This document shows, piece after piece, positions 9,754-38,588 of a stretch of 64,000 nt of DNA. Origin of the DNA: Methanofollis aquaemaris (GTDB taxonomy: Archaea; Halobacteriota; Methanomicrobia; Methanomicrobiales; Methanofollaceae); assembly GCF_017357525.1 (NCBI RefSeq), contig NZ_CP036172.1:1400561-1464560 (forward strand), written 5' to 3'. The number at the start of each line of letters is the position of its first letter. Positions within the stretch are counted from its first letter, which is position 1. The notes under the pieces are model-generated. The model was not told the origin of the DNA. It worked only from the letters and a program-made list of their open reading frames with translations, and made no database searches. A program made the translations under genes and the position numbers.

Positions 9754-10642
9754 CCACCGCCATCAGTTCCCAGGCAAGGGCCTCGGCCTTCCCCTCGTTG
9801 GACATCAGGGTGTCGAGGCGCATCGCACCCGGCACCTCGGTCTCGTCCCGCCGGTCCTGGACAAAGACGTCCACGAAGTCTTTGTAGAGTTCGTAGGTTC
9901 CTGCCGACGAGGGCTCCATCCCCCACGCTTCCATCAGGGCGGCGGCCGGGCCTGAGACCGGGCGGTCCCCGATGAAGGGAGAGACGGCGATGACGAACTG
10001 ATCCTTCAACACCTCCCTCACCCCTGCACACTCCAGGATCGGCGAAATACTTGTCACCGGGTTGGACGGCCCGATGATTACAGCGTCGGCCTCGCGGATC
10101 GCGGTCAGGGCCTCGGGCGTCGCCTTTGGCGCGGCCTCCCCTTTCCTGATCACGCCCTCGATCGGCACCTCGCCGCGGTGGCCCACCCAGTACTGCTGGA
10201 AATGCATCGGCCCCTCCGGCGTCTCCACATAGGTCGTCACCTCGGCGTCGGTCATCGGGAGGACGCGGGCCTGGACTCCCAGCGCCCCGGCCAGGGCCGC
10301 CGTCGCCCCGGTAAGCGTGGCGCCGTCCCAGAGCATCCGCGCCCTCGCGATATGGACCGCCCGGTCCTTGTCACCGATGCCGATAAACTCGTCATGGGTG
10401 AACTGCTCCAGGAACTTGTGGGTCGAGAAGGTGTCGCCCCTGATCCCCCACCAGGTGTCGGTGTTCAGGAGTCCGGCAAAGAGGTAGAGCACGGTGTCGA
10501 TGTCGGGAGACATGTGGTTGCCCGAGACCCACATGTCCTCCGCCGTGTTGACGATGACCGCAATCTGATCGTCGTTGACGAGATTGCGCATCCCGCGCAG
10601 GAGTTTCGGGGTGCCGGTCCCGCCTGAAAGGAACGTAATCAT
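9725..10642 (-). CDS. cofD: 2-phospho-L-lactate transferase (coenzyme F420 biosynthesis)
   Basis: A 305-residue protein starting [17 protein letters not shown], the nucleotide-binding glycine loop of CofD. It contains [10 protein letters not shown] and [10 protein letters not shown], typical for the family, and the later GPSNPVTSI segment. CofD transfers a phospholactyl group to Fo to make F420-0, the hydride carrier central to methanogenesis. The start at 10642 is fixed by the family N-terminus; an upstream in-frame ATG at 10789 would overlap the divergent HD gene. It shares a roughly 50-base promoter region with that gene. Confidence 0.97.
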
Positions 10643-30744: not shown

Positions 30745-31336
30745 TAAAATCCCTCATTTGCCGTATTGAGTCTCACCTTTGAAGAACTTCGAATCATGTC
30801 CTCGGAACAATACCCTGTGATCTCTCCTCGCAAGAACGAACACAAGACCATGCCTCAGGGCATTATGGGGTTCATTCAGTGTCCTGACAATACAACAGAG
30901 ACCCACCATGAGATCATTGTGATCTATACGTCAGCAATTATCTCTGAAGTAACATATATTTATTGTGAGCAGTTCCTCTACCCATCCAGTCCAGCTCAAG
31001 GGACTTCATACCCGTCGACCCCAAAAACCATCAGAAGGGCTTTGTTGAAACCCCAACTTTTTCCTGATGCAAGCGCGATTCAACTGCCTTCCAAAATCTT
31101 CTCGCCGGGGGCGCTGCCCCTCGGACCCCTCGGGATGAAGATTGGGACGGGAAGGCTCAATCAATGACGATAAAGAGCGTATTGCCGCCCCCCGCCTATC
31201 GAATCGCACGGGGGGACTCGGGGGGCGGCCAGTCCCCCGCAGAGAGAGCAATCCAGATGATTTCAACAGAGCCTACCAGACACAAAGATTGATAGGACAT
31301 CCCACCGACCATGTGCATAATCGAGGAGGGTAGACC
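30745..31336. other. AT-rich then repeat-bearing intergenic region
   Basis: The first part (to about 31080) is relatively AT-rich; the one long frame on the plus strand (30766-31167) has poor coding character and runs into the repeat, so it is not called. 31087-31155 is a module A copy. 31177-31250 is a module C element containing GCCGCCCCCC, GGGGGG and CCAGTCCCCCGCAGAGA. The final 65 bases belong to the segment duplicated with the antitoxin gene. Confidence 0.5.
31087..31155. repeat. GC-rich intergenic element, module A, followed by module C
   Basis: It begins CCTTCC and ends GGGAAGG with CGCCGGGGGCGCTGCCCCTC and GGGATGAAGATTGGG inside. A module C element follows at about 31177-31250, as also happens at 32894/32973 and 51778/51866. 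Confidence 0.8.
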
Positions 31337-31528
31337 ATGAGCGGCATCGAAACAGACGTGAGGGAGATCAAGGAGAACATCAGAGTGCTCACCGAAAAGA
31401 TCGATGAACTCCTCCATGAAAGAGAGACGGCAGCGATGATGAAACTCTCAGAGCAGTCGCTCTCCACATTCCTGAACGAAGAGCCCGATCTCTATACGGT
31501 CAGAGATGTCAGGGTCGTGTATCGATGA
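31337..31528 (+). CDS. Antitoxin of a MazF-like pair
   Basis: A 63-residue, helical, charged protein (REIKENIRVLTEKIDELLHE) overlapping the toxin start by four bases (ATGA). It contains no obvious ribbon-helix-helix motif. It is called an antitoxin from size, charge, overlap and order. GAGGAGGG precedes the start. A close copy without toxin lies at 33402-33617, sharing about 65 bases of upstream sequence as well. Confidence 0.75.
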   Translation: MSGIETDVREIKENIRVLTEKIDELLHERETAAMMKLSEQSLSTFLNEEPDLYTVRDVRVVYR

Positions 31529-31854
31529 AAGGGAAGATTGTTCTGATACCTTTCCCCTTCACCGATCTCACCGCAGCAAAACTGCGCCCGGCACTTGTCC
31601 TTCATGAGGGCGACCAGGATGTCGTCCTCGCATTCATATCATCACGAATCCCTGCCAGACCGAATCCGGCAGGGGTCATGGTCCCCGTTTCAGATCCCGG
31701 CTTTGCGAAAAGCGGCCTCAAAGTCGATTCGGTGATCCGGCTGGATAAGGTCGCAACCGTTCTGAAAGATCTGGTGGTCGGAGAACTTGGAGAACTCGAT
31801 AACGACCTCAGGACAGAGGTCAATACAAAACTGCCCTCTGTGTTCAGGTTATGA
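31525..31854 (+). CDS. PemK/MazF-family toxin
   Basis: A 109-residue protein with the MazF-fold opening GKIVLIPFPFTDLTAAKLRPALVL, including the conserved FPFTD and K-x-RPA elements. A central strand (DVVLAFISS) and a C-terminal helical region complete the fold. MazF-type toxins are ribosome-independent RNases. It is paired with the small charged gene just upstream. A TATGGG palindrome lies about 70 bases after its stop. Confidence 0.88.
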   Translation: MKGKIVLIPFPFTDLTAAKLRPALVLHEGDQDVVLAFISSRIPARPNPAGVMVPVSDPGFAKSGLKVDSVIRLDKVATVLKDLVVGELGELDNDLRTEVNTKLPSVFRL

Positions 31855-31921
31855 TCTGAGGGCGCCGTCCGGGTAACCCCTCCACCCTGAGTCGATGCAT
31901 TCGATCAAGATTATGGAACTT

Positions 31922-31937
31922 TATGGGCGCGCCCATA
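31922..31937. promoter_or_regulatory. TATGGG-N4-CCCATA palindrome (single copy)
   Basis: TATGGGCGCGCCCATA lies in the 18-bp perfect palindrome 31921-31938. The flanks (GATCAAGATTATgGAAC on the left, TCTCATTTCGAC on the right) match those of the three-copy array at 33174-33317. Confidence 0.6.
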
Positions 31938-32109
31938 ATTATGGACCAAAATCTCATTTCGACGGGCCCTCCTCCCGGACAGAATACACACCTCTCCGCG
32001 CTCCCCTCATTAAACCGGAGATCCATTCCAGGAGGTCATCCCTGAAATATTCACGGCTCGAACCATCCCGTGGATCAAAAACATTTTTCGACCCGGTAAA
32101 ATTGCTTTT

Positions 32110-32180
32110 CTGGAGTGCACGTGCCGGGGGGCTGGCCGCCCCCCCGGACCCCCGACGTCAGGATAGGGGGAGGACGGCAA
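32110..32180. repeat. Degenerate GC-rich intergenic element
   Basis: It has the module-A-like order GTGCCGGGGGGCTGGCCGCC, then CCCCCGGACCCCCG and CAGGATAGGGGGAGG, but without clean CCTTCCC/GGGAAGG ends. Confidence 0.55.
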
Positions 32181-32559
32181 ACCCCCACCATACAAAAGAA
32201 GCCATCGGGGGAAACTCACTTCGATAGAACAGCCCCTGTTCTTCATAAAGGCGATACAGCAACCTTCCCCCTATCGTCCGCGGGGGAGGGTGCGGGAGGG
32301 GGTGGCAACCCCCTCCCGGTCGGGAGTTCTGTGATATGCTCCAGGAGAAGACGGTACACGCTCGCCCGGCCCGAATGAAAAATTCAGGATAGCCTCTGGA
32401 AGAAAAATCGGATCTCATGCAGGTACATCCCACGACCGAATTCAAAAGGAGAAAAGAAAGAGTTTCACCTATTTCTTAGAAGGGCCGATCCATTCGATCG
32501 CGTTCCAAAAATGTATACGAATGTATCAAAAATGTATTCAAATCACGAAACTCCAGACA

Positions 32560-32748
32560 TCAAAGTTCTTCCACAGGAAAGAACTCATCCCCCTCAAGGA
32601 TGCGATTCCAGCGCCGGTCCAGCGAGGCGATCGCCCGCTCTTCGATCAACCGCTTGAGAATCTGATCGTCGCTCTCACCCTCGCATCCCATCTCCCTCAG
32701 AAGAATCAGCGTCTCCTCCGAGATGGTGATCTGTGCCGCGGCAGTCAT
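32560..32748 (-). CDS. VapB-like/DUF7557-type antitoxin, orphan
   Basis: A 62-residue protein: an ITISEETLILLREMG strand-helix opening, then ESDDQILKRLIEE and an acidic C-terminal tail ending FFPVEEL. This matches small archaeal VapB-like antitoxins. The start at 32748 is preferred; ATG at 32778 would add ten residues. No toxin gene (for example a PIN-domain VapC) follows within the AT-rich region downstream, so the partner seems lost. Confidence 0.7.
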   Translation of the reverse strand: MTAAAQITISEETLILLREMGCEGESDDQILKRLIEERAIASLDRRWNRILEGDEFFPVEEL

Positions 32749-32893
32749 CAAAGAGAGTGATCTCCGGCAGCGGAACATAAGGGTTTCGGACCGGAGCGTT
32801 CACGCGTGGTACCGCCTTCGCACGATAAAAATCGGCTCTTGAGAAACCATCCTCTTTTCATCACCGCAACCCCCCGGTGAACCCAACCCATCG

Positions 32894-32959
32894 CCTTCCC
32901 ACATGCTCGCGGCGGGGGCGTTGCCCCCCGCCCCCGGGATTGCGATCGGGCCGGGAAGG
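32894..32959. repeat. GC-rich intergenic element, module A, followed by module C
   Basis: CCTTCCC (32894-32900) and GGGAAGG (32953-32959) bracket a GCGGGGGCG-TTG-CCCCCCGC core. Module C follows to about 33045 and ends CCAGTCCCCCCCGCAGAGAT, as at 31250 and 51935. Confidence 0.8.
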
Positions 32960-33192
32960 CGGAGCGATGACCATGAAGAGGGGGTTTCCGCCCGCCGACC
33001 ATCTTCGCGCGGGCGGCCAGTCCCCCCCGCAGAGATCGTTATACCAAAGATTCTACAGGGCCGAAAAAAACAAAAAAAAAGTTCAGCCCGTCCCCGGCTC
33101 TTCGAAGCCATACAACCATGCACACCAGAGTTCAGACCGATTGGAGACAATGATCCGGGATCCAAAGGAAAAGATCAAGATTATAGAACCAT

Positions 33193-33283
33193 TATGGGGG
33201 TGCCCATACCATGAGCCATGAGGTTATGGACTTGATTATGGGCGCACCCATAAAATCCATTCCTGCATATGGGCAAGCCCATA
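33193..33283. promoter_or_regulatory. Array of three TATGGG-N4-CCCATA palindromes
   Basis: Exact copies stand at 33193-33208 (spacer GGTG), 33237-33252 (CGCA) and 33268-33283 (CAAG), centred 44 and 31 bases apart. They lie 120-210 bases upstream of the orphan antitoxin. The identical arms and variable spacers suggest a binding site for one dimeric protein. Confidence 0.65.
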
Positions 33284-33401
33284 TCCTATGGACGAGGATC
33301 TCATTTCGACCAAACCTCATCTCGCACCGGCAACGGTACGCCGGACGCAAAGATTGATAGGACGTCCCACCGATCAGGTGCATGATCGAGGAGGGCGGAC
33401 C

Positions 33402-33617
33402 ATGACCGACATCGAAGCAGACGCCAGAAAGATCAAGGAACGCACAGAAGTGCTCACCGAAACGATCGACGAACTCCTCCATGAAAGAGAGACGGCGGCG
33501 ATGATGAAACTCTCAGAGCGGTCGCTCTCCACGTTCCTGAACGAAGAGCCCGATCTCTATACGGTCAGAGACATAAGATCAGAAGAAAACATTCCGCCCC
33601 CTCAAACCCTCCATTGA
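33402..33617 (+). CDS. Duplicated orphan antitoxin
   Basis: A 71-residue near-copy of the antitoxin at 31337, with the same core (ELLHERETAAMMKLSE, then FLNEEPDLYTVRD). After that point the sequence diverges to IRSEENIPPPQTLH and no toxin frame follows. The upstream GATTGATAGGAC...GAGGAGGG region is also shared. It is a duplication in which the toxin was lost or never copied. Whether it is still made is unknown; it could neutralise the toxin at 31525 as an anti-addiction module. Confidence 0.7.
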   Translation: MTDIEADARKIKERTEVLTETIDELLHERETAAMMKLSERSLSTFLNEEPDLYTVRDIRSEENIPPPQTLH

Positions 33618-33665: not shown

Positions 33666-33959
33666 ATGAAGTCCCGGGAGGAGGTGCTTGCCACCCTCGC
33701 AAGCCTCAAAGACGAACTCTCGATCCGTTTCCATGTCAGGCGGATCGGAGTCTTCGGGTCGGTCTCCCGCGGCGAACAGACGCCGGAGAGCGACATCGAC
33801 ATCCTAGTCGAGTTCTCCCGGCCGGTCGGTTTTTTTACCTTCATGGAACTGGAAGCATTTCTCTCCGAACACCTTGCAGCCCCGGTCGACCTGGTGACAC
33901 CCGACGCCGTCAAACCGGTCATGAAGGAGAGGATCGCGGCGGAAACGGCCTATGTCTGA
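33666..33959 (+). CDS. MNT-type nucleotidyltransferase of a HEPN-MNT pair
   Basis: A 97-residue minimal nucleotidyltransferase. The catalytic motif G-S-x9-S-D-x-D is seen in FGSVSRGEQTPESDIDI, with the third acidic strand at PVDLVTP. MNT antitoxins of this class inactivate the HEPN partner, in characterised cases by adenylylating it. The gene overlaps the HEPN gene by eight bases. Confidence 0.9.
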   Translation: MKSREEVLATLASLKDELSIRFHVRRIGVFGSVSRGEQTPESDIDILVEFSRPVGFFTFMELEAFLSEHLAAPVDLVTPDAVKPVMKERIAAETAYV

Positions 33960-34296
33960 GCCCGACCCGGTTCTCTCCTGTCATGACATCCTCGAAGCCA
34001 TCGATCGTATCGAACGCTATACGGGGCCCATAACTTTTGAAAACTTTTTGCAGGATACGAAAACACAGGACGCCGTGATCAGAAACCTCGAAATCATCGG
34101 AGAAGCGGTGAAAAATCTCCCTGCCGATTTCACGAAGGCGCACCCCGGGGTGGAATGGCGTGCCGTCGCCGGGATGCGGGACAAACTCATCCACCATTAC
34201 TTCGGTGTCGACATGAGGATCGTCTGGGAGACGGCACGCACCGACCTCCCGCTTTTTCGGGGCCGGGTCGAGTCGATCCTTAGAATACTGTCGTGA
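33952..34296 (+). CDS. HEPN-domain (HepT/DUF86) toxin
   Basis: A 114-residue all-helical protein. The RNase motif R-x4-H is at Arg76-His81 followed by His-Tyr (RDKLIHHYF), and NLEIIGEAVKNLP is the conserved DUF86 helix. HEPN toxins of this class cleave RNA. Translation is coupled to the MNT gene upstream, and its stop overlaps an in-frame ATG of the next frame. Confidence 0.9.
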   Translation: MSEPDPVLSCHDILEAIDRIERYTGPITFENFLQDTKTQDAVIRNLEIIGEAVKNLPADFTKAHPGVEWRAVAGMRDKLIHHYFGVDMRIVWETARTDLPLFRGRVESILRILS

Positions 34297-35646: not shown

Positions 35647-36293
35647 TCCGCCACCTCAAATACAAACGACACTATCTCCGGACATTTTCGACCACCACAC
35701 CTCAAGAATTATCATTTGTTTTATATATTGGCTCTGGGCTGATCCTCTACATGTCGGGCCACGCTCATGGGATCTCAGATCTTTCGACCCAAAAAAATCA
35801 GTAAAAAAATATAAATCTCTTGAATTCGGCGTACTTTCTGCCATGCCGTCACTCTCGCTCTCTCATCACCGGCGTTCTTCAAGACGAAAATCCCCGGCCC
35901 TGAGGATCACATGTGATTCGAAAACACACCTCAAGCATACCGCGTGAAAATTGTTCAGAACAGATCTCCGGCGTGTGGAAAGATCCTTGCTCTCCTCCCT
36001 GATCAATGCTCCATCGCCACCCCCCGGCGCGAGAGAACAGTCGAAATGTCTTCATCCTTCCAGTGGGGCGGCACGTCTGATCATCCGTGACCCTCGTCCT
36101 TGTGCCCTTCGATCTCATGCCCTCCCACCAGCCGCACCAGCGACCGCCAGACCCCCCAATAAGGCAACCTTAAGACCCCCGCCACCCATTCACCCACATG
36201 CACCGAAAGAAAAAAACAGACGGCAGCCCCCGTGACCACCTGTGCGCCAACACCGGTTCAAGGAGCATTGCCGACAAACCCTCGACCCGCCGG
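35647..36293. other. Intergenic region with promoter and partial repeat
   Basis: It includes the TATA-like box for the minus-strand gene (about 35719-35730), an AT-rich stretch near 35790-35825, and a partial module D at about 35895-35961 (CTCAAGCATACCGCGTGAAAA) that matches 494-525 in reverse. The in-frame extension of the primase gene from 36198 to 36293 lies here and may or may not be coding. Confidence 0.45.
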
Positions 36294-38588
36294 ATGACGA
36301 ACCCGATCGCCGCCGCCCTCGACACACTCTTCCCGGCGGGCGGCGTCGTGGAACTCCGCGCCCTCGCCGACCGGTTCACCCACTCCGGCTACTTCGACGA
36401 CTATGCAAAACTCACGGCCGCCGCCGAGGCGCTCGACGCCGATCCTGAAGTGAAGGGGATCTATGTCACCCTCAACGTCGTGGACCCGGCGCTCCTCGCA
36501 AGGCGGGCGAACCGTGTGAAGATGCGGCTGACGCGCCACGATCCCACCACCGCCGACGCCGACATCCTCCGTCGCCGGTGGTTGCCCATCGACCTCGACC
36601 CGGTGCGGCCGAGCGGCGTGTCGTCGACCGACGAGGAACACGACGCGGCGCTTGCACGGGCCGATACGATCGCCGGATGGCTCTCCGGGCAGGGCTTCCC
36701 TGATCCGATCAAAGCCGACTCAGGCAACGGCGCCCACCTCCTCTACCGGATCGACCTTCCGAACGACGACGGGGCGACGGCCCTGGTGAAAGGCGTGCTC
36801 GCCACCCTGGACATGGTCTTCTCCGACGATGTGGTCGTCGTCGATACGGCGAACGTCAACGCCGGCCGCATCTGGAAATTGTATGGGACGGTCTCGCGCA
36901 AAGGCGACCACACCCGGGACCGCCCGCACCGGCGGGCAAAGATCCTCTCGGCGTCCGAGCACGCGGAGATCGTCACGCCCGAAATGCTCCGGGCGATCGC
37001 CGCCCCCCTCCCCGTCGATGCCCCGGCGCCGCCGAAAGGGAAGAAGGCGTTCGACCTCGACGCATGGCTTTCAAAGCACGGGATCGGCGTGCGGAGCACC
37101 AGAGCCTGGCAGGGCGGGACGCTCTACGTCCTGGAGGACTGCCCCTTCAGCGGCGCCCACCGCGACGGGGCGTTCGCGATTCAGTTCCCGAGCGGCGCGA
37201 TCCATGCCGGATGCCACCATACGAGTTGCGGCGGCGGGGCGCAGCGGTGGCCTGAGTTGCGGGCCATGCACGAGCAGAAGCGGCAGAGCAGAACCCCCCC
37301 GCCGCCCGAAGCCGAAGCCGACGCGGTCAGGGAACGGGCGATGGAGATCCTCACCCGCGGCGACCCCCTCGCCTTCATCCTCGACACCTTCCACCGGGAG
37401 CACGTCGGCGACCACACCGTCGCCGAGTGCCTCGTCCTCTCGGTCGCCTCCCAGTCGGTCGAGAACACGCACGGCCTCCACGTCGCCATCTCCGGCATCT
37501 CCGGGAAAGGCAAGACCCACACCTGCGAGACCATGCTCGACCTCATCCCGAAAGCCTTCCAGATCACAGGCACGGTCTCGGACAAAGCGCTCTACTACCA
37601 CGACGACCTCAGGTCAGGCAGCGTCTTTCTCTTCGACGACGTCTCCCTCTCCGACGACATGCAGGAACTTCTCAAGTCGGCCACCACCCGGTTCAGAGAA
37701 CCCATCGAGCACCGGACCCTCACCACCGACCGCCGCCTGCGGGTCTGCACCATCCCGGAGCGCTGCGTCTGGTGGCTCGCGAAGGTGGAGAGCGTCGGCG
37801 ACGACCAGGTGATGAACCGCATGCTCACCGTCTGGATCGACGACTCGAATCATCAGGATCTGGAGGTGCTCGGCCACATGAAAGCGGCAGAGGCAAAGCG
37901 CCGGCGCGACCGGGAGCAGGACGAGGACGTGCACGTCTGCCGTGCCATCTGGGAGATCCTCAAGGAGCGGACCGTCTACGTCCGCATCCCCTTCGCGACG
38001 CGGATCTCTTTCCAGTCGGCCAGGAACCGCCGCAACCCGGCCATGCTCTTCGACCTCATCAAGGCCTTCGCCCTGCTCAAGTTCTACCAGCGCGAGCAGG
38101 ACGAGGACGGGAGCCTCATCGCCACCCGCGAGGACTTCGACGCCGCCCGCCGGGTGTTCCTTGCGATCAACCGCGACGCCGGCGGGCAGGAGACGAAACA
38201 GACCAGGAACGAGGCGGCGGCGCTGGAGACGATCGCGGCGATGGGCCTGGAGATCTTCACGATCAGGCAACTGCAGGACGCCCTCGGGCTTTCATATCAG
38301 AAGACCTACCGTCTGCTCCACGGCTACTCCAACAACAAAACGACCTACACCGGCATCCTGGACAAGTGCCCGGCGGTGAGTCTCATCGACGCCACGGTGG
38401 CCGAAGAACGGTACGGGATCGAGATGAAACGCCGGGAACATTATTTCTCGTTCGATTACCGGGTCTACCGCGAGTGGGCGGCGAATGCGGATGTCTGGCT
38501 CGACGACGATCCCGACTCTTTCACCCTCGCGCCCGGTTTACACCCGGCGGGTGAAAACCAGACGGCCGCGGAAGAGAGCCGATCATGA
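36294..38588 (+). CDS. Primase-polymerase (AEP) with zinc module and P-loop ATPase, replicon-type
   Basis: A protein of about 764 residues from ATG 36294, where the conserved NPIAAALDTLFPAGGVVELR begins; ATG 36198 would add 32 poorly conserved-looking residues. The N-terminal half resembles archaeo-eukaryotic primase-like proteins of plasmids and viruses: Asp100-x-Asp102 in LPIDLDPVRP, a GNGAHLLY motif near 144-151, and RIWKLYGTVSRKGD near 192-205. A zinc-like segment follows at about 283-312 (CPFSGAH, CHHTSC). The C-terminal half has Walker A GISGKGKT near 402-409 and Walker B-like FLFDDVSL near 445. It would prime and unwind DNA for an integrated element. Iteron-like repeats start inside its 3' end. 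Confidence 0.8.
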   Translation: MTNPIAAALDTLFPAGGVVELRALADRFTHSGYFDDYAKLTAAAEALDADPEVKGIYVTLNVVDPALLARRANRVKMRLTRHDPTTADADILRRRWLPIDLDPVRPSGVSSTDEEHDAALARADTIAGWLSGQGFPDPIKADSGNGAHLLYRIDLPNDDGATALVKGVLATLDMVFSDDVVVVDTANVNAGRIWKLYGTVSRKGDHTRDRPHRRAKILSASEHAEIVTPEMLRAIAAPLPVDAPAPPKGKKAFDLDAWLSKHGIGVRSTRAWQGGTLYVLEDCPFSGAHRDGAFAIQFPSGAIHAGCHHTSCGGGAQRWPELRAMHEQKRQSRTPPPPEAEADAVRERAMEILTRGDPLAFILDTFHREHVGDHTVAECLVLSVASQSVENTHGLHVAISGISGKGKTHTCETMLDLIPKAFQITGTVSDKALYYHDDLRSGSVFLFDDVSLSDDMQELLKSATTRFREPIEHRTLTTDRRLRVCTIPERCVWWLAKVESVGDDQVMNRMLTVWIDDSNHQDLEVLGHMKAAEAKRRRDREQDEDVHVCRAIWEILKERTVYVRIPFATRISFQSARNRRNPAMLFDLIKAFALLKFYQREQDEDGSLIATREDFDAARRVFLAINRDAGGQETKQTRNEAAALETIAAMGLEIFTIRQLQDALGLSYQKTYRLLHGYSNNKTTYTGILDKCPAVSLIDATVAEERYGIEMKRREHYFSFDYRVYREWAANADVWLDDDPDSFTLAPGLHPAGENQTAAEESRS

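Follow-up and report, generated by a model that had tools for sequence, protein, structure and literature searches.

Archaeal promoters preceded by operators with several sites have been described, an example being that of Ss-LrpB (PMC2995911). Other described systems with clustered or repeated palindromes are the autoregulatory operators of type II toxin-antitoxin systems, the OR/OL operators of phage immunity regions, and MITE and REP-like repeats. Here we analysed four copies of the palindrome TATGGG-N4-CCCATA in a 64,000-nucleotide stretch of DNA (the window) from Methanofollis aquaemaris, for which the published genome of strain BCRC 16166T is an Illumina-read assembly (PMC9583781). One palindrome is located in a cassette designated copy A and three in a cassette designated copy B (Table 1). 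A literature search for the palindrome motif found nothing.

Palindrome copies and cassette architecture

A motif scan of the window gave exactly four copies of TATGGG-N4-CCCATA, with starts at 31922, 33193, 33237 and 33268. When up to two mismatches were allowed, the window contained 6 matches, whereas shuffled sequences averaged 1.2 and never had more than 4, and in 40 Markov simulations of the window every 6-N4-6 palindrome occurred at most twice. Since none of the shuffles reached 6 and no simulated 6-N4-6 palindrome occurred more than twice, chance was excluded, and the four exact copies claimed in a preliminary description of this DNA were confirmed. The genome scan suggested there returned these four copies only: the 2,746,416-bp genome contains no exact match outside the span 31922-33283, and all four lie within 1.4 kb. 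No degenerate fifth site was found near them in the window scan with up to two mismatches. The looser genome-wide motif count was 53, close to the 47 of the control, and a diffuse palindrome family is therefore absent. A dispersed repeat family was also rejected because the exact palindrome, unlike REP/BIME-like repeats with their many copies across a genome, is confined to a single locus.

Table 1. Coordinates of the cassettes, palindromes and neighbouring features in the window.
Feature	Position	Strand	Basis
Cassette copy A: left flank, 1 palindrome, right flank	31903..31963	+	flank comparison
Palindrome A, TATGGG-CGCG-CCCATA, perfect 18-bp dyad TTATGGGCGCGCCCATAA	31922..31937	.	motif scan
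TATGGA half-site-like words beside palindrome A, at 31912 and 31940	31912..31945	+	
Cassette copy B: flanks as in A around 3 palindromes	33173..33310	+	flank comparison
Palindrome P1, TATGGG-GGTG-CCCATA	33193..33208	.	motif scan
Palindrome P2, TATGGG-CGCA-CCCATA	33237..33252	.	motif scan
Palindrome P3, TATGGG-CAAG-CCCATA	33268..33283	.	motif scan
Antitoxin gene A (63 aa, without a Pfam family above cut-off)	31337..31528	+	
PemK/MazF-type toxin gene A	31525..31854	+	PF02452, E 1e-11
VapB-like antitoxin gene	32560..32778	-	sub-threshold PF02697
Stretch shared with G003, ending in the 3' end of the lost Cache-type gene	33064..33112	.	
Conserved predicted core promoter of antitoxin B, BRE/TATA-like CGCAAAGATTGATAG	33346..33360	+	
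Antitoxin gene B, 71 aa, without toxin	33402..33617	+	88% DNA-identical duplicate of A
MNT gene, 3' of antitoxin B	33666-33959		
HepT-like gene, 3' of MNT	33952-34296		

The two cassettes are 1.27 kb apart and are the only two copies in the genome. Their left flanks (ATCAAGATTATGGAAC in A and ATCAAGATTATAGAAC in B) share ATCAAGATTAT[G/A]GAAC, and their right flanks (TATGGACCAAAATCTCATTTCGAC in A and TATGGACGAGGATCTCATTTCGAC in B) share TATGGAC-N4-ATCTCATTTCGAC with 21/24 positions identical. The p value of the homology was about 0.0005 for each flank, which bore out the earlier claim of one versus three palindromes between shared flanks, with adjusted limits: copy A moved from 31904-31965 to 31903-31963, and the end given for copy B, 33317, was 7 bases too far, placing this cassette at 33173-33310. 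Beyond the flanks no homology between A and B was found (p 0.36 on the left and 0.82 on the right), and therefore the cassette edges are sharp in two different contexts. More extended homology, linking the leader of antitoxin B with the sequence to the right of copy A, was considered and rejected as not significant (p 0.82).

In copy B the palindrome centres are 44 and 31 bp apart, and further TATGGA half-site-like words are found at 33225 and 33287. The interval between P1 and P2 contains GGTTATGGACTTGATTATGG, which is first right-flank-like and then left-flank-like (p about 0.011 and 0.004), a pattern that tandem growth of a single unit, or its collapse, would produce. Based on this interval, we propose that the change from one to three palindromes may have occurred by unequal recombination between the repeated units. 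The copy-number variation described earlier holds between two places in one genome, and only there.

The arms are invariant in all 12 of 12 columns of the four copies and the spacers and near flanks in 0 of 24, a contrast somewhat inflated by observer selection because the copies were recognised by their arms. That the arms are perfect in all four copies while the flanks have diverged suggests that constraint continues, and we infer that one dimer would bind each dyad. The dyads can also fold as 6-7-bp stems with 4-base loops, and copy A lies a short distance (50-70 bp) behind the PemK stop codon, both of which would be compatible with terminator- or processing-like RNA hairpins rather than DNA sites. 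Such hairpins are extremely improbable, since there is no U-tract, all copies agree in the stem sequence itself and not in complementarity alone, copy B occupies a leader region, and no Rfam RNA or tRNA match was found.

The toxin-antitoxin island and its promoters

Judged by its gene content, the locus is a decaying toxin-antitoxin island from which a Cache-type gene, a RelE partner and the second PemK toxin have been lost. Antitoxin B is followed in the island by MNT/HepT-like and HicB-like genes. The antitoxin A and B genes with their promoters form a 231-bp duplicate of 88% identity, and the equivalent core promoter for antitoxin A is at 31281. In the closest relative (G003), which has no antitoxin A/PemK unit at the locus, both the RelE-like partner of the VapB-like gene and the Cache-type gene are present (these two names were read from translations, with no Pfam scan). 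In M. aquaemaris the RelE-like partner is absent and the Cache-type gene is deleted, its place being occupied by copy B. Another congener (G006) has about 70 bp without palindrome between the VapB-like gene and antitoxin B, and in two more (G001 and G004) the units of antitoxin and MNT/HepT are present but palindromes are absent.

Several other features of this region were observed. The orphan antitoxin B is open in two species, here and in G003 (L191, about 9866-10110), and has lost its PemK partner in both. A 796-aa protein (window 36198-38588) is syntenic in G001, G003 and G006 and had no Pfam or NCBIfam match. A GC-rich repeat, intergenic and as long as about 210 bp (window 31037-31250, 32120-32330 and 32895-33040) exists in dozens of copies here and in G003, G006 and G007, several of which surround toxin-antitoxin duplicates. 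It is adjoined by a second interspersed repeat, AGGTCATCCC...GCTTTTCTGGAGTG (window 32032-32118), also present in G003, G007 and elsewhere in this genome (G000), and the two may together be one MITE-like element.

Copy A is located 3' of the toxin gene, 50-70 bp past the PemK stop codon, between two gene ends and facing the 3' end of the VapB-like gene, and it cannot act on a nearby promoter. Copy B is located 60-150 bp upstream of the predicted promoter of the orphan antitoxin B; about 35 bp separate the end of this cassette from CGCAAAGATTGATAG, and about 60 bp separate its nearest dyad from that element. The proximity of the palindromes to toxin-antitoxin genes, with copy B upstream of antitoxin gene B, is what would be expected if they were operators of the neighbouring systems bound by their antitoxins, a link that the preliminary description implied. 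However, about 20 orthologous antitoxin promoters share another element, a BRE/TATA-like core ACGCAAAGATTGATAG with a block of the TCCCACCGATCA type after it, and none of them has the palindrome within 450 bp. No palindrome was found at the corresponding sites in four congeners, nor upstream of antitoxin A, the one that has retained its toxin. Copy A is downstream of the toxin and not upstream of a gene, and the sites of copy B neither overlap nor abut the core promoter. Because the orthologous promoters are without the palindrome, the toxin-antitoxin operator was rejected as highly improbable, the implied link was dropped, and the candidate regulator, on this comparison of promoters, is not a neighbouring antitoxin. 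Type II autoregulatory operators are, as here, palindromes near toxin-antitoxin genes, but the palindrome of this locus is not common to orthologous promoters and does not overlap the core promoter.

Distribution in relatives and mobile elements

The exact single palindrome was found in 1 of 11 congeners (G009, contig L011), alone and in another context, and a 17-base form in 3 of 232 genomes of the order. Clustered palindromes were seen in this genome alone, both among 393 genomes of the phylum and, when a looser form was allowed, among 231 genomes of the order. With no orthologous site in any searched relative, there is no phylogenetic conservation. The preliminary description had named missing conservation of the arms in related genomes as evidence against it: the clustered palindrome is indeed absent from the searched relatives, but the arms are kept in the four copies here. 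A 41-bp match to G053 right of copy A reads as coding sequence without palindrome and was discarded. The cassette DNA had no similarity match in phage and plasmid collections. In IMG/VR the right flank had no match, the left flank matched 13 scattered contigs, which were taken as chance, and the single-palindrome scan gave mostly background among the matches listed.

The two sharp-ended copies in non-homologous contexts and the absence of the cassette from congeners at corresponding sites are compatible with two insertions of a tiny non-autonomous mobile element, either MITE-like or the target of a recombinase or transposase, whose hairpins would be recognised by an enzyme encoded elsewhere. 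Copy A also folds as an extended imperfect hairpin, but no better than many shuffles (z -1.3), and its outer stem is not kept in B. Terminal inverted repeats with a target-site duplication, as in MITEs, were not found: the weak inverted ends in A are absent in B, and no duplication is visible in the flanks. There are only two copies in the genome, and the palindrome number differs between them. We regard a mobile element as somewhat unlikely. MITE and REP-like repeats resemble the cassette in being short, palindromic and intergenic with sharp ends, and differ from it in that the cassette has two copies, no terminal repeats shared by both and no target duplication.

It is unlikely, too, that the palindromes are no longer used and are fragments of a lost virus or plasmid immunity or control region. 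The decay of the island in M. aquaemaris, the GC content of the palindrome locus (0.47, compared with 0.61 for the window) and the use of these arms in phage immunity regions would agree with such a relic, but the perfect arms point to constraint, no viral genes were seen in the cassette, and phages, plasmids and, by the right flank, IMG/VR gave no match.

Phage-type arms and a putative operator cassette

The clustered form was found in one IMG/VR contig (L098), in which dyads have a repressor gene (HTH_3 + Peptidase_S24) on one side and a P22-Cro-like gene on the other (3 sites, one imperfect), with two more dyads at 915-952. A looser pattern gave 31 contigs. Three of these (L226, L242 and L245), and by layout L243, have two or three dyads beside CI, Cro or antirepressor genes, and the rest include coding repeats or unrelated families. 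Since sets of dyads stand beside CI/Cro genes in several phage contigs, these arms are, as far as gene context indicates, an operator type that CI/Cro regulators of bacterial phages use repeatedly. In these five contigs ATGGG-N4-CCCAT is an apparent CI/Cro operator and the recognition helices are similar (NQTSIS, DQSTIN, DQSTIS, NQGTVS), and a helix-to-operator code is possible. The recognition helices of all nine HTH_3 proteins of the M. aquaemaris genome were compared with those of the phage repressors; a Q-S match in two of them (encoded at 2667050 and 2486566) was not counted because Q-S there is too common.

We see an even chance that the palindromes are operator-type sites for one dimeric sequence-specific DNA-binding protein, arranged in a compact one-site/three-site cassette. 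The invariant arms, the four copies within 1.4 kb, the sharp homologous flanks, the phage immunity-region arms, the half-site-like words, the flank-like P1-P2 interval and the precedent of multi-site archaeal operators argue for such operators; the lack of an adjacent CI/Cro gene, a spacing unlike that of phage sets, the position of copy A away from any promoter that it could act on and the lack of an orthologous site in relatives argue against them. The earlier proposal that a site bound by a protein exists once in one place and three times in another agrees with the invariant arms, the diverged spacers and flanks, and the phage CI/Cro operator arms, but without its toxin-antitoxin part. The cassette appears species-specific, its regulator possibly of CI/Cro type, and it is perhaps a relic of a mobile element.

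If the palindromes are operators, copy B could carry three dimers 60-150 bp ahead of the BRE/TATA that precedes the orphan antitoxin and MNT/HepT genes, and these dimers could influence the predicted promoter, and copy A, between two gene ends, would be a relic or titration site. The putative regulator, possibly of CI/Cro-like helix-turn-helix type, was most likely brought in by a mobile element, now or in the past. A bolder extension, which we think very doubtful, is that the methanogen has acquired a functioning operator switch: a CI/Cro-like regulator, encoded by a temperate archaeal virus or plasmid, would bind the three-site array in the host and control the orphan antitoxin and MNT/HepT genes. 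Toxin-antitoxin expression would then be coupled to infection, and recombination would tune the number of sites.

If bound, the palindromes would add a regulatory site not described before to the few operators mapped in methanogens, and would show on a small scale, in nature, a shift in operator number from one to three between shared flanks; if a relic, they would be the trace of a mobile element since lost from a toxin-antitoxin island in decay. Either reading corrects the idea of a toxin-antitoxin operator, and the palindromes supply an exact DNA bait.

Compared with the OR/OL operators of phage immunity regions (L098, L226, L242, L245), the cassette has the same ATGGG-N4-CCCAT dyads, often TATGGG-N4-CCCATA in the phages, and likewise sets of two or three near-identical dyads with variable spacer. 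The phage dyads, as in lambdoid arrays, adjoin CI (HTH_3 + S24) and Cro genes or lie between them, at a regular spacing of about 23-25 bp, whereas here the spacing is 44 and 31 bp, no such gene is adjacent, the neighbouring proteins are without HTH_3, and one has to go about 22 kb, to about 55163, to reach the first HTH_3 gene of the genome. The phage operators belong to bacterial phages and the host of the cassette is an archaeon; the phage CI/Cro likeness is an analogy. Ss-LrpB of Sulfolobus (PMC2995911) recognises another sequence and regulates its own Lrp-family gene, in contrast to the orphan antitoxin downstream of copy B. Its control region, which is bound cooperatively, has three dimer sites ahead of an archaeal promoter, a layout that the putative dimer sites of copy B would share.
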